Source: an uncultured Bacteroidales bacterium (GTDB taxonomy: Bacteria; Bacteroidota; Bacteroidia; Bacteroidales; Bacteroidaceae). From it: a stretch of DNA of 64,000 nt. The position numbers were made by a program, and so were the translations under genes. Location of the stretch: assembly GCA_902787575.1 (NCBI GenBank), contig CADAGX010000002.1, positions 186,001 through 250,000 of the forward strand. Direction: 5' to 3'. Below are positions 6,595 to 60,479 of the stretch, in pieces. The number at the start of each line of letters is the position of its first letter. Positions within the stretch are counted from its first letter, which is position 1. A model generated the notes under the pieces. It was not told the origin of the DNA. It saw nothing but the letters and a program-made list of their open reading frames with translations, and searched no databases.

Positions 6595-7221
6595 ATGGAA
6601 AACAACCTGGTAATTCGTGTGGCCATAGCCGACGACCATAAGATGGTGGCCGAAGGAATTGCCAGACTGATTGAAGAAAGCGAGACGGCACACGTGGTGG
6701 GCATAGCAGGCACACTCGGCGATGCCGCCTCGCTCATTTCGGCCGAGCAGCCCGACGTGTTGTTGCTCGACGTAGCATTGCCCGACGGCGACGGAATCGA
6801 CTCCATTCCGCAATTTCTCGCGGCCAGCAGTCAGACACGCGTCGTCGTGCTAACAATGTTCGGCGAGCGTGCCGTCATCGCTCGCGCCTTAGAAGCCGGA
6901 GCTTCCGGCTTTGTGTTGAAGAGTGCGGCACCCGAGGTTCTCATGGAAGCCATGCGTGCCGTCTGTCGCGACGAAGTATATCTGTGCGGCGAGTCGAGCC
7001 GAATCCAAAGGATTTCAAAGGAGGTAGCTCCCACTCTGACACCTCGCGAGCGAGAAATCTTGCGTCTCATTGTGGACGGCCTCTCGATAAAGGAAATTGC
7101 CGACCGTCTCTGCTTGGGTTTCGAGACGGTGCACAGTTACACGAAATACTTGCGACGAAAGTTGCAGGCCAACAATACGGCGTCGCTCGTGCGTACGGCC
7201 ATCGAGCAGCACCTTGTGTAA
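6595..7221 (+). CDS. LuxR/NarL-family response regulator
   Basis: This 208-residue cytoplasmic regulator has an N-terminal receiver domain (acidic pocket Asp13-Asp14, phospho-acceptor Asp59 in LLLDVALPDGDG, conserved Thr in VVVLTMFGE and Lys in GFVLKSA). It ends in a LuxR-type helix-turn-helix (LTPREREILRLIVDGLSIKE through the KYLRRKL recognition region). This is the normal partner of a HisKA_3 kinase, and the TPR kinase encoded just upstream is the obvious candidate. Targets are not evident. A strong hairpin that begins within the stop codon ends the transcript. Confidence 0.95.
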   Translation: MENNLVIRVAIADDHKMVAEGIARLIEESETAHVVGIAGTLGDAASLISAEQPDVLLLDVALPDGDGIDSIPQFLAASSQTRVVVLTMFGERAVIARALEAGASGFVLKSAAPEVLMEAMRAVCRDEVYLCGESSRIQRISKEVAPTLTPREREILRLIVDGLSIKEIADRLCLGFETVHSYTKYLRRKLQANNTASLVRTAIEQHLV

Positions 7222-7271
7222 ACGAAATGCGACGTGTAGTTTTAGTCGATACTACACGTCGCATTTCGTTT
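7220..7271. terminator. 21-bp perfect hairpin between convergent genes, made of the ACACGTCGCA repeat
   Basis: The arms at 7220-7240 and 7251-7271 are perfect inverted copies with a 10-nt loop. The arm AAACGAAATGCGACGTGTAG (plus one T) overlaps the response regulator stop codon. A T-rich stretch follows on both strands. Besides terminating both genes, it is one copy of the dispersed repeat family (word ACTACACGTCGCATTT, also present at 37055-37070). Confidence 0.85.
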
Positions 7272-7280
7272 TGTCACACG

Positions 7281-10200
7281 TCACTTTTTCAGAAACTTCC
7301 TGCCCTTTTGTACGGCGACGCCTCGTTGCGCTGTCGGAGCCGGGCGTCCCAGCAAGTCGTACGTGGCATCGGAGCGTTTGGACTCCGTGTCGGCCTCTAC
7401 GTTCCGAAGGCTTGTGCCTTCGCGTGTCACATATGCCGAGAAGGCTGGCACGCTTTCTGCCGACGGTTGCGGCTGCAAACTGTCGTCGAGCTGGCAGGCG
7501 GTAGCATCGCTGCTGAGCGTCGTCATCCCGAAGGTGCCGTGCAGCGTGACGTCGCCTACCTTCACCTGCGAGGGCTCCGACACGCTGATTTGTACGTGCT
7601 CCAGCGTGATGGGTGCTGCCAACACGTCGGTCGGGCGCACAGCGTAGGGCACTCCGGCACGCATCTCGTCCACTTCCGTCCATTTCATCGTCCAGTTTTC
7701 ATCGTCTGGACCTGTGGTTTTCACCTCGCTGAACTCCATAACCTGCGTTCCCGCGCCGAAAATGGTGCGGATGTCGGCTGCGTTCAGTGCGAAAGGAAGG
7801 CACACGGTGTTCCATACGCCGTTCAGGAACTGGCGGTTCAGCACTACGCGGTTGGTGTAACTGCGTGGCACAATCTGGTTGTCGGCTGCGGTGGCTTCGT
7901 AGGTGACGGGTAGGTCGGAGACTTTCCACGTGCGGAGCTGGTCGATATAGAACTTGCCATGATTCTGCCCGTTCTGTTTATTTGTCTCGGCGCCGTATCC
8001 TGATTTTACTCCCACCTCGAGGTTTTCTCCCTCGCCAACTTCGATGTCCAGCGACAACTCGCTAACGCGGCCGGTTGTCGTGTTGGCATTCAGGTTGGCG
8101 AACGTGGCAACTTCTCCTTCCGTGAGCAGATTTGGATATCTTTCCTTCGAACCATAATATTGCACGCTACATTTGTCGCCTGCCGCACCGTAGAGCCGTG
8201 CCAATCCCAGCTTGGCGTAGTAAACCCACATGCGGCCGCTCACTTCGTACACGCCGGGTGTCAGCCGTTCGGCCGGGATAATCTGGAAGAGTCTGAAGTC
8301 ATTTGGGATAACGGCTGTGGAACCTACCCATCCGGCCCATTTCAGCTCCAGATTTGCAGCATCGCTCACGCCGCCGTAACTATCTGTCCACGCGTTGGAC
8401 TGCCAGCCGAAAATTGTGCCGTTTGACGCCTCGTTCTTTGTCGTCTTCTGGTTCCAGTCGTACGTGACACCTTTCGGATCCTTCTCGAAGTTGTAGTTCA
8501 CAAGATTCTTCTCGCTGAAGCTGTCGGGCGTGTCAGCCCGCTCGGTGACTTTCTCTACGCGGAAATCATCCACCATAAAATAGCCGGCACCCGCCTTATC
8601 TACACCCTGATTTGAGCTATTCGTGCGTACGCCGAGAACCAAATCGTCTCCTTCGCGCAGATTGATGTATACCGTCATGCGCTGGAGATTTTGCGTCTTG
8701 ATGTTGTTGAAGCCGCCCGCGTGGCCGGCAAACGACGAGCGGTAATCGGTGTAGGTGAGCGCGTCGTAGCCCGAAGACGCATTGCGGTAGTACGCTTCTG
8801 TCGTCCAGTATTGCACGTTGCAATTTGTGCCGTCGCCGTTGTCGGCAAACAGACAGCTCGTTCCGTAGTAATCTTTCTCCACCCACATGCGGCAAGAAAT
8901 CTTATAGATGCCGGCTCCCAGTTTTTCTGACGGCACGCGCTGATAGAGTTTCAGAGGCTCCACAATGGTGCCTCCCGTGGCAGGTTTGCAAACGTAGGTC
9001 TGCTGTCCGTCTTTGTTGTTTGCCGCTGTACTTATGCTACGTTGCAGTGTCAGTCCAGCAGGTGCCTCGCTCCAACCCGCGGGCGGCAGTGTATTTTGGT
9101 TGAATGCTATTTCAAACGACGGGTTCTGCAACACGCGGCTTGTGATGTCGACGGCCACCGTATTGTTCGTCGCGGGCAGCGTCTCGAGTGAGTCGATTTG
9201 CAGCCCACCCTCCAATTGGCTGATGCAGCGGCTGGCGTCAACAGCCTGCACGCGACAATCGTGCTCGTCGATGGCCTGCACGGCAGCCAGCGCAGTCGTT
9301 TCTCCCAAAACCATGTACACGGGCTCCATGCGGATGCTGCCGTATGCAATGTGCGACGCCGACAAACACACCGGCACCAGCAGGTTTTTGGCCTCCGACT
9401 CGCGCGGTGTCACCGAACGATACGAGATATTATACGGGCCGGCCGTCAGATGGCGCTGGACATCTCCCTCATTTTTCACCATGCCGTTCACAACGTAGCG
9501 GCCGCAGTTGTGCGAATCCATAGTATACGCGCCCCAGGCGATTGGGTCGTTTGCTTCCTTGGTTCGCAAACAGTAATCTTCGGTCATCACCAGTCGGCCT
9601 ATCATGCGGCGCGCTTCGCGGATGTAAAGTTGCGGCGTGAAATTATGATTGTCTGTGTATTCGTCCAGCGGGTAGCCCCAGTTTAAATACTCGCTCTGTA
9701 TGTTTTTCGGCACGCGAGGGTCTGTCCACAGGATGTAGAGCAGTCCTTTTGTGTAATCCTCGTGTAGTTTTGCGATGGAGTCGCGCTGTTCGTACGTTGC
9801 CTCGGGGTAATCCCAACTGTATCCAATCATGTCGGTCGAAAAAGCACCGTTGTTATTGTTGTCTGTCTTGTATGCATTCCACGAATTCGGCCCCGAGGAA
9901 TCTTTCATGTAGCTCCATTTCAGGCAGTCTCCCGTGCCGCTCCAGCCTTTTTTCTCGAGCCAGCGGAAAAGCAGCTCGTAGCGACTCGGGTCGTAATTGT
10001 CGGGAATTTCGTCTGTGATGGGCCGGAAATTCTTTTTCGAGAGTGTTACGCGATAGTTGTAAGCCTGTATGTGATTGTCTCCCGCGCCCTTTGTTCCGAC
10101 CGACCCTTCCTGGATGCCCCATAGCAGGCCGCTGGCCGGATTTCCCTTCACCACATACGGGTCTACGCCGTCTGTAAACTGGTGTTTGTTGAGCATTTGC

Positions 10201-10841
10201 ACGCCGTTCTCGGGCTCGCCGTACTGCGACGCCGGCTCGCGCCCCACGGTGTACGAGACGCCGGCTCGTGCCATCAGGTCGCCCTCGTAGCTGCAATCCA
10301 TGAAAATCTTGGCGTAAACCGTGCGATTTGGCATCGTGCCTTTGATATCTCCGCAACTCTCCAGTTCGATGCTCACCAGCGCGTTTGATTCTTTGTTCGC
10401 CTTCACGATGCGCCACTGGCGCCACATCTCTTCTCCGTCGCGGATGCCTGCTTCGCTCAGGAATCCCTCGAATGTCGCCAACGCTACCTTAGGCTCGAAG
10501 TAAAACTGCGGCGAGGCAATGCCGTAGTGGTTGCCTATGCGACGATAGAATTCGCGCGCAAAACCTTTTATTATGCGCCGATGACTTGTGCTGTCCCCTA
10601 TGTCGGTCCATCCCAGACCACCTGCCGTCATGCCGCCTATTCGCTTTGTGGGCGACACCAGCAGCACGCTCTTTCCTTTCAGCCGCGCGGTGTATGCTGC
10701 CATGATGCCCGCAGGCGTACTGCCATAGACGCAGATATCTACGGTTTTCTGTGTGACGTCCGTCTCGGTTGCGCGTACCGCCGGTCTTAGCACGGCAAAC
10801 ATTATCAGTAACGCGATGCCGGAAATAGTATTTCTACCCAT
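7281..10841 (-). CDS. Exported FAD-dependent oxidoreductase with two carbohydrate-binding-like domains and a C-terminal surface tail
   Basis: This protein has 1,186 residues. The start MGRNTISGIALLIMF gives a signal peptide ending near residue 24. A pfam12831-type FAD_oxidored domain follows (dinucleotide-binding segment VYGSTPAGIMAAYTARLKGK near 38, then RIGGMTAGGLGWTDIG), reaching about residue 560. Two homologous beta-sandwich domains come next (about 570-770 and 780-980). They share the pattern G-Y-x2-S-x-RMWV and CxVQY. A Prevotella-type domain with GVWNTVCLPFALNAADI lies near 1005. The protein ends in YDLLGRPAPTAQRGVAVQKG-type sequence, typical of surface-exported Prevotella proteins. 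It probably oxidises a sugar or glycan-linked substrate outside the cell; this is inference. An upstream in-frame start would cross the promoter and a terminator, so it is rejected. Confidence 0.85.
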   Translation of the reverse strand: MGRNTISGIALLIMFAVLRPAVRATETDVTQKTVDICVYGSTPAGIMAAYTARLKGKSVLLVSPTKRIGGMTAGGLGWTDIGDSTSHRRIIKGFAREFYRRIGNHYGIASPQFYFEPKVALATFEGFLSEAGIRDGEEMWRQWRIVKANKESNALVSIELESCGDIKGTMPNRTVYAKIFMDCSYEGDLMARAGVSYTVGREPASQYGEPENGVQMLNKHQFTDGVDPYVVKGNPASGLLWGIQEGSVGTKGAGDNHIQAYNYRVTLSKKNFRPITDEIPDNYDPSRYELLFRWLEKKGWSGTGDCLKWSYMKDSSGPNSWNAYKTDNNNNGAFSTDMIGYSWDYPEATYEQRDSIAKLHEDYTKGLLYILWTDPRVPKNIQSEYLNWGYPLDEYTDNHNFTPQLYIREARRMIGRLVMTEDYCLRTKEANDPIAWGAYTMDSHNCGRYVVNGMVKNEGDVQRHLTAGPYNISYRSVTPRESEAKNLLVPVCLSASHIAYGSIRMEPVYMVLGETTALAAVQAIDEHDCRVQAVDASRCISQLEGGLQIDSLETLPATNNTVAVDITSRVLQNPSFEIAFNQNTLPPAGWSEAPAGLTLQRSISTAANNKDGQQTYVCKPATGGTIVEPLKLYQRVPSEKLGAGIYKISCRMWVEKDYYGTSCLFADNGDGTNCNVQYWTTEAYYRNASSGYDALTYTDYRSSFAGHAGGFNNIKTQNLQRMTVYINLREGDDLVLGVRTNSSNQGVDKAGAGYFMVDDFRVEKVTERADTPDSFSEKNLVNYNFEKDPKGVTYDWNQKTTKNEASNGTIFGWQSNAWTDSYGGVSDAANLELKWAGWVGSTAVIPNDFRLFQIIPAERLTPGVYEVSGRMWVYYAKLGLARLYGAAGDKCSVQYYGSKERYPNLLTEGEVATFANLNANTTTGRVSELSLDIEVGEGENLEVGVKSGYGAETNKQNGQNHGKFYIDQLRTWKVSDLPVTYEATAADNQIVPRSYTNRVVLNRQFLNGVWNTVCLPFALNAADIRTIFGAGTQVMEFSEVKTTGPDDENWTMKWTEVDEMRAGVPYAVRPTDVLAAPITLEHVQISVSEPSQVKVGDVTLHGTFGMTTLSSDATACQLDDSLQPQPSAESVPAFSAYVTREGTSLRNVEADTESKRSDATYDLLGRPAPTAQRGVAVQKGRKFLKK

Positions 10842-10894
10842 ACGATTCTTGTATTTATTTGTCGAAATTCTCGTTTTTATGTGTACTTTCTCGG

Positions 10895-10902
10895 CAAAGG
10901 TA
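10895..10902 (-). promoter_or_regulatory. -7 box (TACCTTTG) for the FAD oxidoreductase gene
   Basis: On the minus strand TACCTTTG lies about 53 nt before the ATG at 10841. The leader is AT-rich and has no obvious structure. Confidence 0.65.
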
Positions 10903-10929
10903 GTGTAAAAACACGAAATACAAAAGAAA

Positions 10930-10970
10930 GCGCGAAAAAAAGTACGAGGCGGCATTCGGATTGCCGCCTC
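10930..10970 (-). terminator. Hairpin terminator of the nine-gene minus-strand run
   Basis: On the minus strand GAGGCGGCA pairs with TGCCGCCTC around a 7-nt loop and is followed by GTACTTTTTTT. It lies about 70 nt after the C10 protease stop codon and just upstream of the next gene's promoter. Confidence 0.8.
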
Positions 10971-10986
10971 GCCGTTTCTGAAAAAC

Positions 10987-11036
10987 TGCCTTGTGGGAAA
11001 AATTTTCCCACCCGTGGTATTTTTTCTGCCACAGGC
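10987..11036 (-). repeat. Dispersed 3'-end repeat, second copy of the element near 1009-1061
   Basis: On the minus strand this reads CCTGTGGCAGAAAAAATACC and continues into GTGGGAAAA-T-TTTTCCCAC, a perfect 19-bp hairpin (10993-11011). The plus-strand sequence from about 1009 has the same order of parts: CCTGTGGCA, an A-run, a GTG-rich arm, AATTTTC and CCCACA. Both copies follow the 3' end of a gene. Confidence 0.6.
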
Positions 11037-11041
11037 GAGAA

Positions 11042-12154
11042 TTATTTTGCGGGCTGTATGCCCACCACGCCACTCACGAGGAATGTGTGCTCGCCCATCT
11101 TCGTAGTGGGCGTGATGAGTCGGAACCATCCGTTTGCCACGCCTCCCCAGCCGAGATTGAAGTGTAGATACTCGTCAAACACGCCGTCGGCTACAAAGAT
11201 ATGTTGGTTGTCGCAGAGGATGCACGGCCGTCCTGCCTCCACTTCGTGCCGCACGTATTCCACCAGTTCGCCTTCGGCAATTCCGCCCACCAGCCGTGCC
11301 GTCTCGGCGTACCCGAAGTGCTGCGTCAGTGCTTCCCTGTAGTATTTCATTTTCGTCAGGGTGGTTTTTGTGCCGTAAACCGAGTGGAGCGCGATGCCGC
11401 ACATCCTGATGAGCGGTGCCAGCGTCAGCGTATCGCGGTCGTGCCAGCCGTAGCTGTCTTTCAGCCCGTCCCATCCGAGTTTTACGCCTTCCATTTCGAC
11501 ACAGATGCGTTTCCCCTCGTCGGTTTCGTACTGACATGTTCCGCGGGCCACCTCCGGGAAACGGTGGAAGTACATCACCTGTCCCAGCGCCACGGCGCCG
11601 CAACCGCTCACCACGGGCGCGGTCTGTCCCGCGAACACGTCGTGCAACCCGAACTGCCGCCATGCAATTTGTCGCAAAAGGGGCACCACACGTGCAGATG
11701 CCTGCTTTGTTTCCAGCGATGCCTCGGGTGGCAGCACTCCTCGGCTCATCCAGACGAGCAGGCTGTCGTACTTCTGAATCATTTTTTTGAAAGGTGCCGG
11801 CCGCGAGACTGACCCGTAGCGACTGCCGATAGTAAACGCCAAAATGCGCTCGCTGACGAGATGCACGAACGAGTCTCGCACGACGAGAAAAAATTTCGTC
11901 CCCATCTCGTCGTGCAGAAAGGCCAGTCGCGGCGAGACGGCCTCGGCACGCAAGCCTAGTATCTGCAGGTTGGAGCCGCGCTGCTGTACGAAGTCCTGCA
12001 CATAGTGCACAGCCTCCTGCTGCTCGCCTTGCGGCAGTGCAATCCATTCGGCGCGCGGTTTCTGGTCCGGCGCCTTAGGCTTTTTCCTTCCTGCCGCCAC
12101 AGCGGGCAGACATAGCAGGGCGGAAAGCAAGATGCAGGCGGCTCTTTCTCGCAT
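11042..12154 (-). CDS. C10-family (streptopain-like) cysteine protease, exported
   Basis: This protein has 370 residues with a signal peptide (MRERAACILLSALLCLPAVAAG). The C10 catalytic cysteine is in VVSGCGAVALGQVMYF (Cys185). The catalytic histidine is in NQHIFVADG (His318), followed by the conserved NLGWGGVANGWF. The region between the signal peptide and Cys185 is long enough for a propeptide, as in SpeB. The ATG overlaps the stop codon of the upstream lipoprotein gene by one base (TAATG), so I take it over an in-frame start 15 codons further upstream. In Bacteroides fragilis, C10 proteases sit next to small exported inhibitors; the overlapping upstream lipoprotein could have that role here. 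Confidence 0.9.
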   Translation of the reverse strand: MRERAACILLSALLCLPAVAAGRKKPKAPDQKPRAEWIALPQGEQQEAVHYVQDFVQQRGSNLQILGLRAEAVSPRLAFLHDEMGTKFFLVVRDSFVHLVSERILAFTIGSRYGSVSRPAPFKKMIQKYDSLLVWMSRGVLPPEASLETKQASARVVPLLRQIAWRQFGLHDVFAGQTAPVVSGCGAVALGQVMYFHRFPEVARGTCQYETDEGKRICVEMEGVKLGWDGLKDSYGWHDRDTLTLAPLIRMCGIALHSVYGTKTTLTKMKYYREALTQHFGYAETARLVGGIAEGELVEYVRHEVEAGRPCILCDNQHIFVADGVFDEYLHFNLGWGGVANGWFRLITPTTKMGEHTFLVSGVVGIQPAK

Positions 12155-12678: not shown

Positions 12679-13542
12679 TTATTTCACGTATTTGCTGAAG
12701 AAGGACCACACTTCCTCGCCCGTGTCGATGTCGTCTGTGTGCCATTTATGTCCGGCTCCCACCACTTCGTAGAGCCACACGTCGCAGCCCGTAGGACCGC
12801 CCGTGAAGCGATGTTTTATCACGGGGTGCCCGTCCTTTTTCAGACTCTCCACGCGTTCTGTCTCCTCGTGCGTGCAGCGATTCTTCGCCACCCAGTATCC
12901 CACGGCCAGCGGCACGGGCATGTATGCGCCCCAGCCGCCTTTGTTTTCCAGGTCGCCGCCCCACTCAGAAGTGTGGTCAGCCGTGCCATGCACCTCCATG
13001 ACAGGTATCGGACGTTTTGCCTCGAGTTGCGAATACATCCACTCCATGGTAAGTCCGGCAATGGGAGCCACGGCTTTGAAAGTTTTCTGCTTGTTATTGA
13101 ACGCCATCAAGTAACACATCTCGCCTCCGTTCGACATGCCAGTGAGAAAAGTATTCGTGCGGCTCAGTTTGTGACGCTTCTGCACGTGTTGTGCTATGCG
13201 ACACAGTGCTTTCACGTCGTCTTGTTTCCATCCTGCCTGCGAAGGATAACCCACGTTCCAGCTGGGTTTTCCTTTCGGGTCGCGCAAGCCCTGCGGTATG
13301 CAGACTGCAAACCCGTGGCGTTTGGCAGCCGCAACCATAGGATTCTCGCGCCAAATCGAACCGCCGTAACCATGTAGCACCACCACAAGCGGAGCTTCTT
13401 CCTTTATTCCCTCGGGCAGGAACGTCACAAAGCGACGCATCTTGCCGTCCACACGCAGTGAATCTTTCACGAAAGTCTGTGCGCTTATTGCCGAACAGCA
13501 GAGTAGGCACATCAACATCACAAATGTCTTCTTCGTCTTCAT
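12679..13542 (-). CDS. PHB-depolymerase/feruloyl-esterase-like alpha/beta hydrolase, exported
   Basis: This 287-residue protein has a signal peptide (MKTKKTFVMLMCLLCCSAISA). It shows the fold marks of the LpqC/PHB depolymerase family: oxyanion loop VVVLHGYGGS, nucleophile elbow GMSNGG (Ser137), Asp189 in EVHGTADHTS and His265 in GAGHKWH. Relatives cleave ester links in plant polysaccharides (feruloyl or acetyl groups) or polyesters. The neighbouring secreted GH29 and protease genes favour a role in glycan or wall degradation. The substrate is unproven. Confidence 0.88.
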   Translation of the reverse strand: MKTKKTFVMLMCLLCCSAISAQTFVKDSLRVDGKMRRFVTFLPEGIKEEAPLVVVLHGYGGSIWRENPMVAAAKRHGFAVCIPQGLRDPKGKPSWNVGYPSQAGWKQDDVKALCRIAQHVQKRHKLSRTNTFLTGMSNGGEMCYLMAFNNKQKTFKAVAPIAGLTMEWMYSQLEAKRPIPVMEVHGTADHTSEWGGDLENKGGWGAYMPVPLAVGYWVAKNRCTHEETERVESLKKDGHPVIKHRFTGGPTGCDVWLYEVVGAGHKWHTDDIDTGEEVWSFFSKYVK

Positions 13543-20650: not shown

Positions 20651-20755
20651 GAAAAACTACGTGTAGTTTTCTCTGACGGCACACGTAGTTTTCAGAAATC
20701 TACACGTCGTGTGGACGCAAACCACACGTCGCATTTCGGCTCGCCACGTGTGGCA
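20651..20755. repeat. ACACGTCGCA repeat cluster, locus b
   Basis: This stretch lies between divergent genes. A 12-bp hairpin (AAACTACGTGT at about 20653-20664 with ACACGTAGTTT at 20681-20692) is followed by TACACGTCGTGTGG, ACCACACGTCGCATTTCG (20721-20738) and CCACGTGTGGC. The 18-mer differs by one base from the arm of the 7251-7268 hairpin. Confidence 0.75.
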
Positions 20756-20801
20756 TACAAAATATTGGCTGCAGGCTGTCGGATAATCGCTGTCTTTTTC
20801 G

Positions 20802-24158: not shown

Positions 24159-24187
24159 GAAAACGTAAACACGACGTACAAAAATTA

Positions 24188-24257
24188 GGGAGCCCACGTC
24201 CGAGTTGGCGACTGCTTGCTTCGGCAGTTCCGCCTTTCGGACGTGGGCTCCCTGTTT
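24188..24257. terminator. Strong bidirectional terminator between RNase R and the TonB receptor
   Basis: GGGAGCCCACGTCCGA (24188-24203) pairs perfectly with TCGGACGTGGGCTCCC (24237-24252). An inner stem (GACTGC with GCAGTT) sits in the loop. A T-run follows on the plus strand. Confidence 0.9.
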
Positions 24258-24275
24258 TTGCTTTCAGGCAGAGGG

Positions 24276-27651: not shown

Positions 27652-27655
27652 CCTG

Positions 27656-29282: not shown

Positions 29283-30042
29283 GTCATTAATTTTGATTAC
29301 TCGCTTTTAGATTTTACGCTTTTGCTTGCACAATCTGCAGATTTAACATCTTTTATGTTTTTTCTTTTGCTCCGTGTTTCGGCGTTCCCGTCCGAGAATA
29401 ATTTCTCCCTGTGATATCCGAAAAATCGCGTGCATTTTCGCAAAAAAACACGCTTCGCAGGGCAAAACCTACACCTTTTTCCGTTGCCTACACTCGAACC
29501 TACACACCTTCAACGTGCAGTATGCCAGCCACTTAATGTACCAATAGTGTAGGATGTAGGTTTTTTTGCAGAAAAATTTTTTGGGATGGATGATGCAGCA
29601 TTCTCAGTTTCCGGAAATCAGAAGCCGTGATTCCTGTCGTTGCAAGGTCAAAGGAAAAGTAAAGGCTGCGCGGGCCTGCCAGCGGCTGCAGAAAGCCTTC
29701 TTCTCCCGATGAAAAGCTAAAACATAACACACGTTTTTATGTTGTTCAGCATATTTTAACAAAATATCCTGCCCTTGTAGGTCGCCCTTCGTGCCAAAAG
29801 CTGTATTTTTGAAGTGGCAAGTGCGAAAAGCATTCCTTCGGGTGCCGAAATACGACACGTGGCAAGGAGAGAAACCAAGCGTGGTTCTGGCAGAAAGCAC
29901 GTGTCGCATCGCAGAAGGCACACGTGTTGGCAAGGAGAGACACACGTAAGGCCGACAAAGCGGAAGCTACGAAACTAAGCTGATACAGAGATATAAAAAC
30001 CAAACTTAATTAACTATTTTATTAACCTTTAATGTTTCACTT
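29283..30042. other. 760-bp non-coding region upstream of the giant surface protein
   Basis: No convincing gene is present. It holds repeated CCTACAC words (29467-29515), an inverted match AAAACCTACAC (29464-29474) with GTGTAGGATGTAGGTTTTTTT-type sequence at 29547-29567, and a small palindrome ATATTTTAACAAAATAT (29751-29767). The dispersed ACACGTCGC-type repeats at about 29849-29950 and an AT-rich leader before 30043 complete it. A promoter for the downstream gene is probable. A TAACCTTT at 30023 is too close to the start codon to be convincing. Confidence 0.6.
29849..29950. repeat. ACACGTCGCA-type repeat cluster, locus c
   Basis: ACGACACGTGGCAAGGAGAG and CACGTGTTGGCAAGGAGAGA are direct near-copies about 67 bp apart. 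Between them lies GCACGTGTCGCATCGC, in inverted relation to the first copy. It is the most divergent of the six loci. Confidence 0.6.
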
Positions 30043-36982: not shown

Positions 36983-37072
36983 AAAAATGCGACGCGTCGC
37001 ATCGCTTCACGCCACACGTCGCAAGTCGTCACGCGACGCGTCGCGTGACGGAAAACTACACGTCGCATTTTT
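36983..37072. repeat. ACACGTCGCA repeat cluster, locus d: nested palindromes
   Basis: The outer arms AAAAATGCGACG (36983-36994) and CGTCGCATTTTT (37061-37072) are complementary. Inside are a perfect 14-bp palindrome TGCGACGCGTCGCA (36988-37001), the 12-mer GCCACACGTCGC (37011-37022) and a perfect 22-bp palindrome with half-site GTCACGCGACG (37028-37049). ACTACACGTCGCATTT (37055-37070) is identical to 7251-7266. Confidence 0.85.
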
Positions 37073-44427: not shown

Positions 44428-44539
44428 GGGCAGGCAGTGCGCTTTTTATATTATAAAAGGGTATGAAACGCCAAAACCTAACGCGCGAACATCTGAAATG
44501 CGCTGCTTTTTGCAATTTTTAACTTTTCGCTTGTCTGGA

Positions 44540-44618
44540 AACGACGTGTCGCATTTTTTGCGGTGCCCGCAGTTTTGGGACTACCACGTGTTGCATTGGT
44601 CGAAACGACGTGTGGTAT
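44540..44618. repeat. ACACGTCGCA repeat cluster, locus e
   Basis: GAAACGACGTGTCGCATTTT (44538-44557), then ACCACGTGTTGCATTGGT and GAAACGACGTGTGGTATC run up to the stop codon of the Fur-family gene. The last two are in partial inverted relation (TACCAC with GTGGTA). Confidence 0.7.
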
Positions 44619-45068
44619 CTAACGTTTCCGCGCGCTGCACTCAGCGCAGACACCTTTTATCATATAGTTGACGGCCGTAGGCGCGAATCCTGCTGGCAAG
44701 TCAACGGGCGGAATGTGCGTGTCGCGCAGGCAGAAAGTGCGGTGGCATTGTTCGCAGTAGAAGTGTGTGTGCTGGTCTTCGAGCGTGCAGTCCTCTTCGC
44801 CGTGGCAGGCCTCGTACTTCATGGCACCGCTGCCGTCTTCGATGCCATGCACCAGATGGTGCTGCAGGAGCAGTGTCAGCGTGCGGAAGATGGTGCTTCG
44901 CTCGGCCGTTACCATGCGTTCCTCCAGCTCGCGAAGCGAGAGCGGATGGCGCGCGCCCTCCAGTTCGCGAAAGACCCACAGGCGCATGGCAGTGGGCTTG
45001 ACGCCGCGAGCCAGAAGTCTCTCCTCCAGCAGGTCTGTGTCCGTAGTGTTGTGGTCGGATTTATGCAT
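44619..45068 (-). CDS. Fur-family metal-responsive regulator
   Basis: This 149-residue protein has an N-terminal winged helix (MRLWVFRELEGARHPLSLRE, STIFRTLTLLLQHHLVHG) and a C-terminal dimerisation domain with EDQHTHFYCEQCHRTFCL. A structural zinc site is formed by Cys105, Cys108, Cys141 and Cys144. The double CxxC and the HTHFYC pattern fit Fur/Zur-type proteins; the metal (zinc or iron) cannot be decided. It lies 6 bp after a nucleoside kinase gene in the same direction, an arrangement I cannot explain functionally. Confidence 0.92.
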   Translation of the reverse strand: MHKSDHNTTDTDLLEERLLARGVKPTAMRLWVFRELEGARHPLSLRELEERMVTAERSTIFRTLTLLLQHHLVHGIEDGSGAMKYEACHGEEDCTLEDQHTHFYCEQCHRTFCLRDTHIPPVDLPAGFAPTAVNYMIKGVCAECSARKR

Positions 45069-47506: not shown

Positions 47507-47550
47507 CGAAAAAAACCGAAACGTTTGTCTGTTAGATGAATAAAATGTCG

Positions 47551-47558
47551 TACTTTTG
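47551..47558 (+). promoter_or_regulatory. -7 box (TACTTTTG) for the FKBP cluster
   Basis: TACTTTTG lies 28 nt before the ATG at 47587, with TTTG about 24 nt further upstream as a -33 candidate. It excludes an in-frame ATG at 47536, which is upstream of the promoter. Confidence 0.7.
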
Positions 47559-47586
47559 CGCTGCAATTTACATTTTTAGCACGTTT

Positions 47587-48171: not shown

Positions 48172-48207
48172 GACAAAAGAATAGTTTAACAATAAAAAGA
48201 AAAAAAC

Positions 48208-49077: not shown

Positions 49078-49087
49078 TTAAAGGGAA

Positions 49088-54743: not shown

Positions 54744-56645
54744 ATGAATGAATCTTCGCACACTCACGACGCAAATGCCGGACGCTTCTCGTTCTTCGAG
54801 GTGATGGGTAAGTACTTTGGCCGCTACAAGCGATATATTGTCGGGACCTTCACGATGAATGTGCTGGCAGCGCTGTTCAACGTCTTTTCTTTCACCGTAC
54901 TGCTGCCCATTCTGCAGATTCTTTTCAAGGTAAATGACACCCGTTTCAGTTTTATTCCGTGGGGAACAGGCGGATGGGGCAACTTTGTGGATGTGGCCAA
55001 GAACAACGGGTATTATTATTCACAGCAGATGATTGACTCGTTTGGGCCAGCCACCACTTTGCTGCTGTTGGGCGTCATACTATCTGTCCTGACGCTTCTG
55101 AAGACGGCCACTTACTTTGGCGGTTCGGCCATGTTGATGCCGCTCCGCTCAGGAATCATCCGTGATATACGTCAGGACTTGTATCATAAGATTCTCAGCC
55201 TGCCGCTGAGCTTCTTTTCCGAAGAGCGGAAAGGTGACATCCTGACTCGTGCCTCCACGGATGTGAACGAGGTGGATGCCAGCATCAACAGTTCGCTTGA
55301 TATGGTCGTTAAGAACCCTATTTTTATTCTTGTGTACTTGTGTACGCTGGTGGCCATCAGTTGGCAGTTGACACTCTTCACGTTGTTGGTGGTGCCGTTG
55401 CTTGCGTGGGGAATCGGCTCTATTGGGAAAAAACTGAAGTCACGCTCGCTGCTGATGCAAAGCCGTCTGTCGGACAGCATGAGTCAGATCGAAGAGACAT
55501 TGGGCGGGCTTCGTATCATCAAGGCTTTCATTGCCGAGGAAAAAATGATGAGCCGTTTTGTGAAGGTGAACAACGAGTATCGCGACATTGCCACGCGAGT
55601 GGCCATCCGTCAGAGTGCCGCACATCCCGTGAGCGAGTTTCTCGGCACGGTTATGATAGTCATTGTTCTCTGGTTTGGTGGGTGGCTGATTTTCTCGGGA
55701 CAAGGTGGCATCGACGCCAACCTCTTTATCTATTATCTGGTTATCCTCTACACAACGCTACAGCCAATCAAGGAATTGTCGCGTGCAGGCTATGCCATCC
55801 AGAAAGGCATGGCCAGCATGGAGCGTATCAACAAGATTCTTTCGGCGGAGAATCATATCAAGGAATGCGCTTCGCCTGTGGAGGTAAAGGGTTTGGAGCG
55901 CGACATCTGCTTTCATGGCGTGCATTTCAGCTACACCGAGGGTAAACCGGTGCTCTGTGATATCGACCTGCGGGTGGAAAAGGGCCGCACCGTGGCACTT
56001 GTGGGCCAGTCGGGTTCGGGAAAGAGCACGCTGGTGGACCTGATTCCACGCTATCACGACGTTTCTGCAGGCTGTATCACCATTGATGGCGAAGACATCC
56101 GGCGCCTGAGCATACACTCGCTACGCGGACTGATTGGCAATGTAAACCAGGAAGCCATCCTCTTCAACGACACAATCTTCAATAACATAGCTTTCGCGGC
56201 CCCCGTTCCTACGAGCGAAGAGGAGCGCGAAGAACTGAGCCGTCGAGTGGTGGAAGCGGCGAAGATTGCCAACGCGCACACGTTTATCATGGAGAGCGAG
56301 AACGGATACGAGACGATGGTTGGCGACCGTGGCTGTCGGCTTTCTGGCGGACAGCGGCAGCGCATCAGCATAGCACGTGCCATCTTGAAGAATCCGCCCA
56401 TCCTCATTCTCGATGAGGCCACAAGTGCACTGGACACCGAGAGCGAGCGACTGGTGCAGGAGGCGCTGGAGCGACTGATGAAGACGCGCACTACCATTGC
56501 CATTGCGCACCGTTTGAGTACCATCAAGAACGCTGACGAAATCTGCGTTCTGCACGAAGGGCGCATCGTGGAGCGTGGTACGCACGAGGAGTTGCTGTCG
56601 CTCAACGGATACTATCGCAAACTGAATGATATGCAGCAGTTATGA
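54744..56645 (+). CDS. ABC exporter, MsbA-like half-transporter with fused ATPase
   Basis: This 633-residue protein has an N-terminal six-helix ABC_membrane domain (about 20-350) with a long extracytoplasmic loop before helix 2. The ATPase domain has Walker A GQSGSGKST, signature LSGGQRQRISIARA, Walker B ILILDEATSALD and the H-loop IAIAHRLSTI. It works as a dimer and probably flips a lipid or lipid-linked precursor (MsbA class). Its stop codon overlaps the start of the first LtaS-like gene by 4 nt, which links it to envelope polymer or lipid modification. Confidence 0.93.
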   Translation: MNESSHTHDANAGRFSFFEVMGKYFGRYKRYIVGTFTMNVLAALFNVFSFTVLLPILQILFKVNDTRFSFIPWGTGGWGNFVDVAKNNGYYYSQQMIDSFGPATTLLLLGVILSVLTLLKTATYFGGSAMLMPLRSGIIRDIRQDLYHKILSLPLSFFSEERKGDILTRASTDVNEVDASINSSLDMVVKNPIFILVYLCTLVAISWQLTLFTLLVVPLLAWGIGSIGKKLKSRSLLMQSRLSDSMSQIEETLGGLRIIKAFIAEEKMMSRFVKVNNEYRDIATRVAIRQSAAHPVSEFLGTVMIVIVLWFGGWLIFSGQGGIDANLFIYYLVILYTTLQPIKELSRAGYAIQKGMASMERINKILSAENHIKECASPVEVKGLERDICFHGVHFSYTEGKPVLCDIDLRVEKGRTVALVGQSGSGKSTLVDLIPRYHDVSAGCITIDGEDIRRLSIHSLRGLIGNVNQEAILFNDTIFNNIAFAAPVPTSEEEREELSRRVVEAAKIANAHTFIMESENGYETMVGDRGCRLSGGQRQRISIARAILKNPPILILDEATSALDTESERLVQEALERLMKTRTTIAIAHRLSTIKNADEICVLHEGRIVERGTHEELLSLNGYYRKLNDMQQL

Positions 56646-58453
56646 GACGTTCGATTCACTTCTTGGAATATCTTTTTTGCCTGTTGTTACTGGTTTTCTG
56701 TGTGGGTAGAATAGGCTTTATGGCCTATAATGCAGACGTGGAGACGTTCGGCGTGGGAGATGCGATGCAGGCATGCTGGCATGGGCTGCTGTCGCACGAC
56801 CTTTTTGTCACGGCGTTTTTGCTCGTAGTGCCTTGGCTCGTAAGCCTGCTGGCCCTGCGGATGAACGGGAAGTTGCCTTTGCGCGCCGTGCTTATACCTT
56901 ATTATATTATATTAGGCATCGCCGTCGGCACGATTATCGTGGCCGATGCTGTGATGTACGAATTCTGGCAGTTCAAGCTCAGCGCTGTAGTTCTCAGTTA
57001 CGCATCCTCTCCCGAGGGTACCACCAACAGCGTAAGCCTCGGTTTCCTGCTGACGCGTCTGGCTGTGCTGCTGCTGTTTTGGATAGTCATCATTGTGCCG
57101 TGCATTCTTTTTACACCACGCCGGCTCGAGAACGACCGCCCGACGCGTCTCTGGTTTCGCAACCTGAGCATCATCTGGGCTTTCCTGCTTATGGCAGGCG
57201 CCTTGCTCGTGCGAGTGGGTGACGCTTACTACAGCCGAAAGCTCTTTCTGAATCATGCGGCCACGAACTCCGTTTATGCCTTTGCGGCCTCCTTCCCGAT
57301 GGAAAAGGACTATGGAACGAAGTACCGCAGCGAGGTGGAATCTTCCGGCGTAGAGGAGATGAGCTGGCTCTATCCTGCTGATTTGACCGATGTGGCCGAT
57401 ACGTTGCTCACCACGCAGCGGCCAAATATTCTGTTCGTCCTTATCGAAAGTTTCGGTGGCAAGTTTGTCCAGGAGCTGGGCGGCGTGCCCGGTGTCGCAC
57501 CCGAATGGAGCCGACTGATACCGGAAGGCGTGTTTTGGGAGAATTACTACAGCAACAGTTTCCGAACTGACCGTGGCACCGTCTCGGCCTACAGCGGCTG
57601 GCTCAGTTATCCAACTGTGAGCCTGATGACTCACGCAGAGTGGCACCACCGGCTGCCCAGCTTGGCTAAGTCGTTGGCACGCGAGGGATACGCCACAAGC
57701 TACCTTTATGCTGGCGCCATGACGAATATGGGCAAGCGTACCTACCTGCAGAATATGGAATTCCACGAGTTGCTCGACGAGACAGCTTTCTCACCCGACG
57801 AACTGACCAGCAGTTGGGGCGCTGATGACAGCACGTCGGCAATGAAGGTCTTCCACCTTATTAGTCAGAAAGATTCAGCCCGTTGGTTCGTGGCCTACCA
57901 GACGCTCTCGAGCCACGAGCCGTGGCAAGTGCCATACCACAGGCTGGAAGATGAGAAACTGAATGCATTTGCCTACACCGACCACTGCCTCGGCCAGTTG
58001 ATCGACTCGCTGCGAACGTTGCCGGCATGGGACGATATGCTGGTTATCTTGATGCCCGACCACGGATTTCTCTACGAGCAGAGCTACGAAGACCCTGAGT
58101 TCTTCCATAGTCCCATGCTTTGGATTGGCGGCGCTGTGCGTAGTCCGCGCAGAATGTCCGTGCTGATGAATCAGAGCGACGTGGCGGCCACGCTGCTCTC
58201 GCAGATGGGAATCGGTCATGCCGACTTCCCGTGGAGCCGCAACGTGCTGAGCCGCGGATACGTATATCCCTTTGCATATTGCAACTTCCCTGCTGGCTTC
58301 CTCTTCTGCGACAGCACGGGAGTCAGTATCTTCGACATTACAGCCGATGAAACGATATTCGAGGCCGGAGATACCGACGGACACCGCCAGCAAGTGGGGA
58401 AGGCCATCTTGTCTGGCAGCGGCTTCGGCCCGTCGCCCAAAGGGGTGGAGTAG
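56642..58453 (+). CDS. LtaS-like membrane sulfatase-fold phosphotransferase, first paralogue
   Basis: This 603-residue protein has about five membrane spans (1-190). An extracytoplasmic sulfatase domain follows: RPNILFVLIESFGGKFVQEL with a metal-binding Glu (near 267), SFRTDRGTVSAYSGW with the likely Thr nucleophile (near 315), TLSSHEPWQVPYH and MPDHGFLYEQ (metal Asp-His near 471). The family includes lipoteichoic acid synthase and phosphoglycerol or phosphoethanolamine transferases. Bacteroidetes lack lipoteichoic acid, so the substrate is probably a lipid or glycan decoration. It is coupled by a 4-nt overlap to the ABC exporter. Confidence 0.9.
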   Translation: MRRSIHFLEYLFCLLLLVFCVGRIGFMAYNADVETFGVGDAMQACWHGLLSHDLFVTAFLLVVPWLVSLLALRMNGKLPLRAVLIPYYIILGIAVGTIIVADAVMYEFWQFKLSAVVLSYASSPEGTTNSVSLGFLLTRLAVLLLFWIVIIVPCILFTPRRLENDRPTRLWFRNLSIIWAFLLMAGALLVRVGDAYYSRKLFLNHAATNSVYAFAASFPMEKDYGTKYRSEVESSGVEEMSWLYPADLTDVADTLLTTQRPNILFVLIESFGGKFVQELGGVPGVAPEWSRLIPEGVFWENYYSNSFRTDRGTVSAYSGWLSYPTVSLMTHAEWHHRLPSLAKSLAREGYATSYLYAGAMTNMGKRTYLQNMEFHELLDETAFSPDELTSSWGADDSTSAMKVFHLISQKDSARWFVAYQTLSSHEPWQVPYHRLEDEKLNAFAYTDHCLGQLIDSLRTLPAWDDMLVILMPDHGFLYEQSYEDPEFFHSPMLWIGGAVRSPRRMSVLMNQSDVAATLLSQMGIGHADFPWSRNVLSRGYVYPFAYCNFPAGFLFCDSTGVSIFDITADETIFEAGDTDGHRQQVGKAILSGSGFGPSPKGVE

Positions 58454-58474
58454 GATACAATACTTGAATATACC

Positions 58475-60382
58475 ATGATGAAAGGTAACCAGATGTCAGC
58501 GGGCGGCCGTATTGCCGCCTCCTTACGCGAGAGGCAGGATCAGCATGCTGCGTGGCGCGTCTGTCTGCTCTTCCTGCTGAGGTTTTTCCTCTCGTGCCTT
58601 CTCGTTTTTGCAGTGGGAAAGGTCGTTTTCATGTGTTACAACCGTTCTGTCGAAGTTTTTTCGGTGCGCGACGTGTGGGACGTCTGGCGTCATGGCTTCA
58701 GTATGGACGTCAGCACCAGCTGTTACCTGCTCGTCCTGCCGTGGCTTGTGATGCTCCTCTGGCAAAGTTGGCGGCGGATGCCCGTCAGATGGTTGCTCGT
58801 GCCCTACAGCGTGCTTGTGGCCGTTCTGCTGGGCCTCATTATTGGCGGTGACGCGGTGCTTTATGAGTTTTGGAAATTCAAGCTCAATGCCGCCATCTTC
58901 TCCTATATGCACAATCCCGAGGGAGCTACGGCCAGTGTGAGCCTGCCATTCCTCGTTTCGCGTGTCGTTGGCATCCTGTTGGCCATCTTCCTCATAGCCA
59001 TATTACTGTTGCAGGCGGTGCGTGCCAGCCTTCCAGCCCCGCGTGTTCGACAGACAGGGCGTGCGTGGGCCGCTGTCCTGCTATTAATGCTGGCTCCAGT
59101 TGTGTTCCTTGGCATCCGTGGCAGCATAGGCACCAGTGTGATGAACGTAGGCGTTCCGTACTACAGCCAGCGGCTGTTTCTGAATCATTCGGCCGTCAAT
59201 CCGGCTTTCAGCCTGCTGTCTTCCTTCAAGCGTGCGAAGAATTACTCAGACGAGTTCGACTGGTTGCCCGAAACGGAGCGTGCCGAGGTTTTTGCCCCTC
59301 TGTATCCGTTGGAGACAGAAGACGTGGCTGATACGTTGCTCGCCACGACGCGACCCAATATCCTCGTGGTGCTGATGGAAAGCTTTGGCGGCAAATTTGT
59401 GGCCGAGTTGGGTGGTATTCCGGACGTAGCGCCGAATTTGAGCCGCCTCATACGGGAAGGCGTCTTCTGGGAGCAGTTTTATGCCAACAGCTTCCGCACC
59501 GACCGTGGTACGGTGTCTGTCTTCAGCGGTTGGGTAAGCTATCCCACCGTGTCCCTCATGCGGTTGCCCGACAAACTTGCTGGCATTCCGTCGCTGGCAC
59601 AGTGTCTGTTGCACGAAGGTTACACCACGGGTTATCTCTACGGCGGCGACATACGCATCATGGGGAAGCGAGGCTATCTTGTAAGTGCAGGGTATCAGGA
59701 TTTTGTGAGCGACAAGGATTTCCCTTTCTCGGCAGTGCACGAGAGCAAGTGGGGTGTAAACGATAGTATCGCAGCCCGTCGGATGTACGAATGGATAGCC
59801 AGTAAACCTGCTTCCGAACGGTGGCACCTGGTATTCCAGACGCTGTCGAGCCACGAGCCCTTCGAGGTGCCGTATCATCGGCTTGCCGACAAGAAACTCA
59901 ATGCCTTTGCTTTCACCGATCAGTGCATCGGGTCGCTCATAGATTCGCTGCGGACCTTGCCTGCTTGGGACGACATGCTCGTCATACTGCTGCCCGACCA
60001 CGGTTATCTCTACGACCTTACGTACGAAGACCCAGCCTTCTTCCATTGCCCCATGCTGTGGCTGGGTGGCGCTGTCAAGCAACCGCGGCGAATGCAAGTG
60101 CTGATGAATCAGAGCGACCTTGCGGCCACGCTGCTCTCGCAGATGGGAATCTCGCACACCGACTTCCCTTGGAGTCGTAACGTGCTGAGCCGTGCATATA
60201 CGTATCCTTTTGTCTATAGCAATTTCCCGGGTGGCATACTTTTCTGCGACAGCACAGGAGTCAGCGTCTTCGACATCGCCAGCCGCCAACCCATTACCGA
60301 GCAGCCGGCGCCGTCGCCCGAGCGAGTGCAAAAAGCAAAGGCTATCCTGCAGACCAGCTACGACCAGTTAGGTGCTCGCTGA
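58475..60382 (+). CDS. LtaS-like membrane sulfatase-fold phosphotransferase, second paralogue
   Basis: This 635-residue tandem paralogue of the preceding protein has the same order of spans and motifs. They are RPNILVVLMESFGGKFVAEL, SFRTDRGTVSVFSGWVSYPT, TLSSHEPFEVPYHRLADKKL and LLPDHGYLYDLTYEDPAFFH. It has an extra soluble N-terminus of about 30 residues (QMSAGGRIAASLRERQDQHA) before the first span. Identity between the two is high in the catalytic domain and lower in the membrane part, suggesting different lipid or acceptor substrates. The start may also be one of two other nearby in-frame ATGs (58478 or 58493). It is the last gene of the run. Confidence 0.9.
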   Translation: MMKGNQMSAGGRIAASLRERQDQHAAWRVCLLFLLRFFLSCLLVFAVGKVVFMCYNRSVEVFSVRDVWDVWRHGFSMDVSTSCYLLVLPWLVMLLWQSWRRMPVRWLLVPYSVLVAVLLGLIIGGDAVLYEFWKFKLNAAIFSYMHNPEGATASVSLPFLVSRVVGILLAIFLIAILLLQAVRASLPAPRVRQTGRAWAAVLLLMLAPVVFLGIRGSIGTSVMNVGVPYYSQRLFLNHSAVNPAFSLLSSFKRAKNYSDEFDWLPETERAEVFAPLYPLETEDVADTLLATTRPNILVVLMESFGGKFVAELGGIPDVAPNLSRLIREGVFWEQFYANSFRTDRGTVSVFSGWVSYPTVSLMRLPDKLAGIPSLAQCLLHEGYTTGYLYGGDIRIMGKRGYLVSAGYQDFVSDKDFPFSAVHESKWGVNDSIAARRMYEWIASKPASERWHLVFQTLSSHEPFEVPYHRLADKKLNAFAFTDQCIGSLIDSLRTLPAWDDMLVILLPDHGYLYDLTYEDPAFFHCPMLWLGGAVKQPRRMQVLMNQSDLAATLLSQMGISHTDFPWSRNVLSRAYTYPFVYSNFPGGILFCDSTGVSVFDIASRQPITEQPAPSPERVQKAKAILQTSYDQLGAR

Positions 60383-60392
60383 GGCATCCTTT

Positions 60393-60479
60393 CATGCGAC
60401 GTGTCGCATGAGTCCACGCGACGCGTCGCGTGAGCCGTTGCCACACGTCGCGTGAAGCAACGCCACACGTCGCAAAAAA
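60393..60479. repeat. ACACGTCGCA repeat cluster, locus f
   Basis: CATGCGAC-GT-GTCGCATG (60393-60410) is followed by the perfect 18-bp palindrome CACGCGACGCGTCGCGTG (60415-60432) and two copies of GCCACACGTCGC (60440-60451 and 60462-60473). That 12-mer is identical to 37011-37022. The cluster starts 11 bp after the stop codon. Confidence 0.85.

Follow-up and report, generated by a model that had tools for sequence, protein, structure and literature searches.

The recurring word ACACGTCGCA and its relatives, which the first-pass annotation had described at six intergenic loci of the window (the whole 64-kb stretch of DNA analyzed) and which we found at all six, are fragments of larger structures: arrays of three to seven dyads with the core ACRYGT, repeated every 22 bp (Table 1). 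We tentatively favor the reading that these arrays are DNA-level sites for a putative dimeric protein, placed every two helical turns at the borders of transcription units.

Arrays of phased dyads in the source genome

The word family itself is real, as the annotation had proposed. With up to one mismatch allowed, ACACGTCGCA occurs 20 times in the window against 6.8 expected (none of 100 shuffles reached this number) and TGCGACNNGTCGCA occurs 3 times against 0.38 expected. Across the whole source genome (G000, a Prevotella-like MAG), ACACGTCGCA is present in 187 copies (91 + 96 on the two strands), compared with 17 (8 + 9) for the reversed word. Nor were the copies spread equally through coding DNA, the outcome that the annotation had named as speaking against a genuine family: in an 830-kb sample of G000, divided into coding and non-coding DNA by a simple gene caller of our own, the 76.6 kb of non-coding sequence contained 69 copies and the 753 kb of coding sequence 6 (reversed word, 1 and 5). 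The word is nearly specific to G000, being found in 0 to 13 copies in 60 other genomes of the genus, about the level of their controls.

Table 1. The six arrays of the window. Gene coordinates come from a simple ORF/hexamer caller and not from an annotation.
Position	Strand	Array	Core positions	Context
7224..7289	.	3 ACRYGT cores, 22-bp pitch	7232, 7254, 7276	Convergent genes: LuxR-type response regulator (6595-7221 +) and FAD-oxidoreductase-domain protein (7281-11129 -)
20651..20759	.	5 cores	20659, 20681, 20702, 20724, 20746	Divergent genes: alpha-L-fucosidase-domain protein and metallophosphoesterase
29847..29955	.	4 cores, degenerate	29855, 29899, 29920, 29942	Divergent genes: 4Fe-4S-domain protein and 2264-aa protein
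36984..37071	.	4 cores, canonical 88 bp; ends AAAATGCG...CGCATTTT	36992, 37014, 37036, 37058	Upstream of cysS (37205-38704 +)
44536..44621	.	3 cores; spacings 42 and 22	44544, 44586, 44608	Fur-family gene (44619-45068 -), whose stop codon the array reaches
60391..60478	.	4 cores, canonical 88 bp	60399, 60421, 60443, 60465	Convergent genes; a sulfatase gene (58475-60382 +) has its stop 8 bp before the array

Where the annotation had seen differently combined words with irregular spacers of 7 to 17 bp, we found a symmetric core recurring at a fixed pitch. Adjacent cores within arrays, called by a detector that permitted a deviation of ±1, are spaced 22 bp apart in 140 cases, 21 in 18, 44 in 4 and 43 in 2, and a free count of ACRYGT pairs gave 2, 8, 73, 1 and 2 at spacings of 20, 21, 22, 23 and 24 bp. 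This pitch is peculiar to the ACRYGT class, as seven other palindromic classes gave 0 to 1 pairs at 22 bp. Runs of only two cores were left out of the counts; 8 of 13 lie in genes, as chance pairs do. A typical G000 array is 88 bp long, and the genome holds at least 79 arrays, counted among the matches listed (150 of 195).

Each unit consists of two 8-bp half-sites (YGTvGYdT) around a dyad, followed by a free linker of ~6 bp; at positions +9 to +11 from the dyad, half-site information drops to 0.18, 0.05 and 0.02 bit. The two halves of a dyad are correlated: an AT center was observed 2 times against 31 expected (0 of 10,000 permutations as low), and mutual information across the dyad was 0.47 against a null of 0.13 (0 of 2,000). 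Across the linker the correlation is weaker (0.25 versus 0.13; 6 of 2,000). Since the units of an array are not independent, part of the dyad correlation reflects duplication. The 22-bp unit may be the binding site of a dimeric DNA-binding protein, with two half-sites and ~6 bp left free. A dyad plus ~6 bp of free sequence would set successive dimers two turns apart on one face of the helix, where neighbors could bind side by side, perhaps cooperatively.

Position relative to genes and along the chromosome

Among the 53 arrays of the 830-kb sample, from which the array at the Fur-family gene is absent because of its 42-bp step, 47 are intergenic (12 of them between divergent genes), 3 lie in genes and 3 at sequence ends. 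The statement that no member lies within a gene therefore holds for most arrays and fails for these three, and of the eight exact words in the window, the one at 12777-12786 stands alone within a predicted gene. Arrays come within 30 bp of a gene on 22 of 48 stop sides but on only 3 of 46 start sides (Fisher 1.5e-5), and the different flavors of G071 behave likewise (13 of 31 versus 2 of 33). When the G000 arrays were placed at random within their own intergenic stretches, the preference for stops persisted (15.5 expected, 22 seen; 5 of 2,000 as high), whereas avoidance of starts was weak (6.3 expected, 3 seen; 144 of 2,000 as low).

Closeness to stop codons is what the annotation's RNA-stabilizing 3′ hairpins, or terminators, would lead one to expect, and some arrays are inverted repeats (7220-7271 forms a perfect 21-bp stem); moreover, the true order of units folds slightly better than within-array shuffles do (z -2.2, 0 of 60). 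Nevertheless, we consider RNA elements of either kind very improbable. Covariation amounted to 0.01 kcal/mol over 44 overlapping three-unit segments, the folds are less stable than those of arrays rebuilt from half-sites of different arrays (z +3.0 and +3.5), and the sense strand favors ACACGT, which does not pair with itself, over ACGTGT (16 versus 5 tandem arrays), a bias that also stands against our own reading. Positions between divergent genes and inside genes fit poorly as well. Nor is intrinsic termination supported: only 4 of 22 tandem-gene arrays have a U-run on the sense strand at their 3′ end, and a terminator scan scored 9 of 46 3′ regions with their array, 6 of 46 with the array masked and 34 of 270 without one. 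No Rfam family matched the window above its gathering score.

In G000 and G071 the arrays are mostly at least 4 kb apart. Although the exclusion-zone thresholds of 3.5 to 4 kb were picked once the smallest gaps were known, the tests on the coefficient of variation (CV) of the gaps were not chosen in this way: it was 0.64 in G000 against null values of 0.79 to 0.90 (P 0.0025-0.033) and 0.51 in G071 against 0.70 to 0.92 (P 0/4000 to 0.0075), with five slot-size nulls each. In a third genome, G005, over-dispersed spacing was seen on contig C73 only and not on C35 or C113. Loss of arrays by recombination between like copies is an unlikely cause of the spacing, since adjacent G071 arrays are mostly of unlike flavor (by eye). 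Arrays at borders, often just past stops and away from starts, and rarely less than ~4 kb apart in these two genomes, are as expected if their role were to organize the chromosome or mark boundaries.

Flavors in relatives and exchange between sister genomes

Many genomes of the genus, and four from other families, have arrays of 22-bp pitch, in flavors that include CCCTATAGGG (194 copies in G005, 0 in G000) and GGCRYGCC; the cultured Hallella multisaccharivorax DSM 17128 has at least one three-unit array. A lag of 22 was the top self-similarity lag in seven of eight genome samples, the exception being a 20-kb sample of G115 (two clusters at lag 21, one at lag 22). In larger samples, lag 22 gave 31 clusters in G071 and 21 in G005, compared with 5 and 4 for the next lag once the harmonic (44 in G071) is set aside (22 and 19). 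Although the main flavors are clearly palindromic, palindromy over all lag-22 arrays is modest: 46 of 83 have a dyad score of 5 or 6 versus 13 of 49 at other lags, and 13% versus 10% are individually palindromic at p<0.05. G071 alone carries many unrelated flavors, which one sequence-specific protein cannot all read, and this counts against our reading.

In a pair of sister genomes with collinear blocks 91-97% identical, 45 kb of synteny contain eight array slots, all occupied in both; the flavor has been exchanged at two of them and the core recoded at a third. At one conserved slot, differences affect 0 of 48 core but 6 of 40 linker positions (P 0.007), while in a second orthologous pair (G026/G058) core conservation was not significant (0 of 20 versus 11 of 90, P 0.21). 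None of 29 other cysS loci has an ACRYGT array upstream as G000 does; some 22-bp-lag repeat lies near cysS in 11 of the 29 (two upstream, the rest on the 3′ side, where five of the loci are cut) and near the Fur gene in 4 of 29.

These comparisons also bear on a purely mutational origin, in which replication slippage and template switching at quasi-palindromes would keep remaking functionless minisatellites in unconstrained DNA. Such a process would explain why unit numbers differ between the sisters (5 versus 2, 6 versus 4), why equal neighboring units occur within arrays and why intergenic spots of the pair that lack arrays diverge too. It would not readily yield one pitch for unrelated sequences, a flavor repeated at many dispersed places, as CCCTATAGGG is in G005, a slot that keeps its cores while its linkers change, or regular spacing in two genomes, and we hold it to be most unlikely.

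If the arrays are instead protein-binding sites, each genome would have its own sequence dialect or dialects, and inherited slots would persist while their core sequences were exchanged or converted, within one array as well as from one to another, through gene conversion, by tracking an altered binding protein, or both.

A possible selfish origin and known repeat families

It is quite possible, on the other hand, that the arrays are non-autonomous elements of tandem dyads, MITE- or REP-like, that a putative enzyme spreads into harmless places. Copying between arrays would then homogenize them, the dyads would be recognition sites of the enzyme, and the over-dispersed spacing would reflect target immunity. 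The three in-gene arrays, in polA and in genes for a PD40-domain and an HHH_3-domain protein, suit such an element well: all are in frame with the ORF open throughout, which is odd for boundary elements and counts against binding arrays. In G117, too, the polA linker has GCACGC/GCGTGC/GCACGC at 22-bp spacing, and in G101 a degenerate 22-bp repeat was read there by eye. Almost identical arrays stand at separate G000 loci (C2:12175 and C2:222992), and presence/absence differences occur between related genomes, as with a G109 array that has no counterpart in G005. However, neither of the two presence/absence cases is a clean insertion, as the entire intergenic stretch differs, and five G000 arrays compared by eye share neither a common flank nor a target-site duplication in their 22-bp flanks; a classical MITE, with clean empty sites and a common flank, finds no support in the arrays compared. 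Filling of all eight slots in both sisters while the sequence changes likewise points to replacement and not jumping.

Nor is a dependence of the arrays on RAYT genes (PF01797) supported: a profile search scored above its cut-off in 53 of 139 genomes, G000 among them (37 bits), but found no match in array-bearing G005, G109, G101, G115 and G052, whose genomes are 80-89% complete. Carriage by phages or plasmids was likewise rejected. The 22-bp pair pattern matched 14 IMG/VR stretches, all of them one two-site segment of related contigs and not arrays, the CCCTATAGGG pair pattern matched none, and a 301-bp piece of the window had no plasmid match. Of the annotation's suggestions, protein-binding sites and a small element both fit the evidence, which does not separate them.

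The annotation had also set the family apart from REP and CRISPR, and we agree. CRISPRs have near-identical repeats with unique spacers about as long as the repeat, whereas the units here vary and are joined by a free linker of ~6 bp. Iterons and multi-operator regions are arrays of dimer sites near a two-turn pitch, with few sites in a row; the present arrays, unlike these, are not confined to one locus but dispersed over 79 or more places on the chromosome, in flavors that vary between and within genomes. Rickettsia palindromic elements lie in frame within protein genes as single units, a similar tolerance of a palindromic repeat, but here the arrays are phased and of many flavors. REP/BIME sequences resemble ours in being short, palindromic, intergenic, species-specific and often downstream of genes, sometimes inside them. 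They consist of a palindrome that carries an unpaired tag, GTAG or CGTC, on one side and are associated with RAYT transposases (PMC3733652). No such one-sided tag appears in our 44-segment alignment or symmetrized unit profile, and the arrays differ further in their head-to-tail 22-bp order, their exchange of flavors in shared slots and their independence of a RAYT gene.

Closest in period is the BrickBuilt MITE of Porphyromonas gingivalis, 84 to 991 nt long, with 23-nt tandem repeats between a leader and a tail and IS5-like ends (GAGACC...) (PMC4596501). It too is an intergenic element of Bacteroidales with a varying number of units, but it differs in its ends and dyad structure from the present arrays of typically 88 bp. 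Inspection by eye of the 22-bp flanks of G000 runs showed no leader or tail with terminal inverted repeats, and AAATGTTA, which lies outside one end in all seven arrays checked in G076/RGIG6721 (5 left, 2 right), is not a BrickBuilt end. In agreement with the annotation, which knew of no such family, a full-text literature search whose scope left out most subscription papers and all bioRxiv preprints returned no description of such arrays.

A chromosome-wide layer of regularly spaced putative protein-binding arrays in Bacteroidales, whose position and 22-bp pitch are inherited while the sequence is exchanged between sister species, is a broader proposal that we regard as rather doubtful; it would mean that the genome keeps the "where" and quickly alters the "what." If the arrays are binding sites, they would represent an undescribed chromosome-organizing or boundary system in Prevotella-like rumen and gut bacteria, with a DNA code that turns over faster than the flanking genes, and flavor-swapped sisters would show the specificity of a DNA-binding protein coevolving with its many sites. 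If they are selfish, they would be phased mosaic repeats of a new kind, able to enter even polA, with a spacing that suggests a rule like target immunity. On either reading, the 22-bp pitch allows precise tests, and H. multisaccharivorax DSM 17128 offers a cultured carrier.

Repeat unit and abundance in the source genome

The first-pass annotation described six intergenic loci of the window (G000:C2:186001-250000) that share the word ACACGTCGCA together with palindromic variants, and all six proved real and nonrandom. The word occurs 187 times in the whole source genome (G000; assembly of 2.65 Mb, 87% complete) against 17 times for its reversed control, well above expectation, and an 830-kb sample bore out the proposed intergenic enrichment, with 69 copies in 76.6 kb of noncoding DNA against 6 in 753 kb of coding DNA. 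Across 60 further genomes from the genus, copy number ranges from 0 to 13, approximately the control level.

The words had been thought to be combined irregularly. When the search was switched from the word to the symmetric core ACRYGT, a regular structure became visible instead: the cores stand at a 22-bp pitch, and the loci align when written out in 22-base rows. Among 533 cores in 450 kb of G000, 73 pair spacings are exactly 22 bp, 47 are 44 bp and 22 are 66 bp; seven other palindromic hexamer classes gave 0 or 1 pair at 22 bp in the same DNA. The canonical array has four units (88 bp), often with AAAATGC at its start and GCATTTT at its end.

We surveyed arrays of at least three cores in 830 kb of G000, with genes from our own ORF caller. 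The resulting 53 arrays (217 cores) give the half-site consensus YGTvGYdT. Information content is 0.5, 1.6, 1.0, 0.5 and 0.8 bits from dyad +4 through +8, then 0.18, 0.05 and 0.02 bits from +9 through +11; the core-finding method itself sets positions +1 to +3. Each 22-bp unit is thus made of a 16-bp dyad and 6 bp of free linker. The type of one half-site correlates with that of its partner across the dyad (0.47 versus 0.13 for the null; 0 of 2000) and less strongly with that of its neighbor across the linker (0.25 versus 0.13; 6 of 2000), both values being inflated by duplicated units.

A search of the window matched no Rfam family to the arrays, and the literature searched yielded no description of these arrays. 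By the features tested they are not CRISPRs, nor are they REPs of the GTAG or CGTC families (PMC3733652) or BrickBuilt elements (PMC4596501).

Position relative to genes and folding

Most arrays (47 of 53) do lie between genes, as first proposed (22 tandem, 13 convergent, 12 divergent); 3 are at sequence ends and 3 are in genes. The arrays prefer stop codons, which lie within 30 bp of 22 of 48 array sides, as against 3 of 46 for start codons (Fisher, 1.5e-5). Random placement in the same intergenic stretches gave a mean of 15.5 stop sides, reaching 22 or more in 5 of 2000 runs, and 6.3 start sides against the 3 seen (144 of 2000 runs as low); the preference for stops is thus firm, and start codon avoidance stems partly from intergenic length. 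Arrays of other flavours (core sequences) in G071, another genome, have 13 of 31 stop and 2 of 33 start sides within 30 bp.

The ORFs of the three genes with arrays remain open, and the coding score falls locally at or beside the array; such in-frame arrays fit better with a selfish element, the main rival to the protein-site reading taken up below. Among 30 polA interdomain linkers read, that of G117 has three GCRYGC cores at 22-bp spacing and that of G101 a degenerate 22-bp repeat, as judged by eye; 22-bp-spaced RCRYGY cores are absent from the 27 others besides G000. On the 3′ side of cysS, a 22-bp-lag repeat of varying sequence occurs in 9 of 29 other genomes (L112 to L140), a recurrently used place.

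In G000 and G071, neighboring arrays keep apart. With kilobase thresholds picked after viewing the gaps, 1 of 47 G000 gaps is below 4 kb (~10 expected) and 3 of 47 below 5 kb (12 to 13 expected) for arrays among the matches listed, and 0 of 31 G071 gaps are below 3.5 kb (5 to 10 expected over five slot-size choices; the 32 lag-22 arrays in these 280 kb come in many flavours). The gap CV, a test chosen beforehand, is low in both genomes. Spacing in G005 is mixed, over-dispersed on C73 and not on C35 or C113.

The earlier suggestion of RNA-stabilizing 3′ hairpins found little support. Hairpins should favor AT or GC centers and matching halves, whereas the cores have GC, AC or GT centers, AT being nearly absent (2 seen versus 31 expected; 0 of 10000 permutations), and the G000 arrays have no excess of matching halves at dyad +4. 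The RNAalifold covariation term was just 0.01 (44 overlapping three-unit segments). Half-sites shuffled between arrays folded better than real arrays (z of +3.0 and +3.5); shuffles within arrays folded slightly worse (z of −2.2; 0 of 60). Sense 3′-end U-runs occur in only 4 of 22 tandem arrays, and A4 and T4 runs in 18 and 14 of 53 array ends versus 37 and 38 of 164 places inside. A simple terminator scan scored 9 of 46 array-bearing 3′ regions, 6 of these 46 once their arrays were masked, and 34 of 270 regions without one; by the features tested the arrays are not intrinsic terminators. The central dinucleotide of tandem-gene arrays is biased by the direction of transcription: on the sense strand, 16 of the 22 have more ACACGT than ACGTGT, 5 have more ACGTGT and 1 has as many of each.

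Flavours among relatives and exchange in shared slots

R1, a three-unit sequence-only model, matches 54 of 139 genus genomes including G000 (E of 0.01, strict filters) and, at E of 0.001, 5 of 295 genomes in an order sample: G000 and four from other families, whose matches are also 22-bp repeats, mostly around CACACGTGGTTTT-like words. By core-independent self-similarity, lag 22 is commonest in 7 of 8 samples, clearly so in the larger G071 and G005 samples; the exception is a 20-kb G115 sample. Counted as sites (control in parentheses), CGACRYGTCG has 156 (25) in G000 and 182 (20) in G115 and is under its control in many genomes; CCCTATAGGG has 194 (0) in G005, 39 (1) in G109 and 0 (2) in G000; and CGGCRYGCCR, on the two strands, has 89/74 (6/6) in G109, 26/19 (6/6) in G005 and 140/138 (15/18) in G086. 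Palindromy is strong in the main flavours and, over all lag-22 arrays, only modestly above other lags. On G071:C73 (L181, L182, L300 to L312), more than 10 flavours share one contig, some recurring, with neighbors mostly unlike by eye. AAATGTTA lies directly outside one end of seven G076 arrays (L082, L052, L058, L064, L067, L068, L072), possibly a one-sided leader.

The sister genomes G005 (C73) and G109 (C2) are collinear over 45 kb, with 94% identity overall with gaps (larger blocks, 91 to 97%; longest, 96.7%), and eight array slots there are occupied in both. At 11.2 and 39.4 kb the flanking intergenic DNA also partly differs; array-free spots near 7.7, 13.1, 18.3 and 23.6 kb are likewise diverged. 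In the unchanged slot the cores are intact (0 of 48) and every one of the 6 differences falls in a linker (P = 0.007); one unit at 16.7 kb has 3 differences, every one inside its core (P = 0.036). In the pair G026/G058, fixed core letters changed in 0 of 20 cases versus 11 of 90 elsewhere, which is not significant (P = 0.21), and center letters in 3 of 10, each change staying within R or within Y. A ninth array, in G109, lies behind a gene whose 3′ neighborhood is not collinear in G005. For another G109 array without a G005 counterpart, the entire intergenic stretch differs, so G005 does not offer a clean empty site.

Arrays and other features by location
Feature	Location	Content
Slot	G005/G109, 0.8 kb	one flavour in both, 5 vs 2 units (2-unit copy below detection threshold, read by eye)
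Slot	G005/G109, 11.2 kb	CCCTATAGGG vs GGCRYGCC, 5 vs 5 units
Slot	G005/G109, 15.1 kb	3 vs 4 units
Slot	G005/G109, 16.7 kb	CGACGCGTCG vs CGGCACGCCG
Slot	G005/G109, 25.9 kb	same flavour, hardly altered
Slot	G005/G109, 29.9 kb	mixed, 6 vs 4 units
Slot	G005/G109, 35.1 kb	composite, two flavours, 1+5 vs 4+2 units
Slot	G005/G109, 39.4 kb	CCCTATAGGG vs GGCRYGCC, 4 vs 4 units
In-gene array 1	G000, polA	between 5′-3′ and 3′-5′ exonuclease domains
In-gene array 2	G000, PD40-domain protein gene	
In-gene array 3	G000, HHH_3-domain protein gene	
Y1-transposase-like gene (PF01797)	L048:9866-10471 (G000:C1)	201 aa; ~3.2 kb from six-core array; one such gene
Terminator-like hairpin	window 24181-24259	long, 23-nt arms, 91% complementary, T-run; without ACRYGT
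ACTATGCACTATGGACTATG minisatellite-like repeat	window 26156-26195, 27620-27659	88% alike; unrelated to 22-bp arrays
Tandem paralogue set	window 47536-50038	three consecutive + strand ORFs; shared segments ~71-83% over 40-111 nt
Adjacent ORF pair	window 56642-60382	second with sulfatase domain; DNA blocks 73-82% identical, 1932-1938 bp apart

Candidate protein sites at gene borders

The many flavours within one genome and the gain and loss of arrays also fit better with a selfish element, a reading to which we give appreciable but minority weight. Sites for a dimeric protein would fit with the phasing of the dyads, the freedom of the linkers, the coupling between halves and the arrays' position and spacing; we tentatively favor that reading, at somewhat short of even confidence. 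A hybrid, in which a mobile or gene-converting array is bound by a host protein, is possible. As putative dimer sites, the arrays may work like the operator or iteron site arrays of other systems: the protein would bind side by side, one dimer every two helical turns, and the bound arrays would mark the borders of transcription units.
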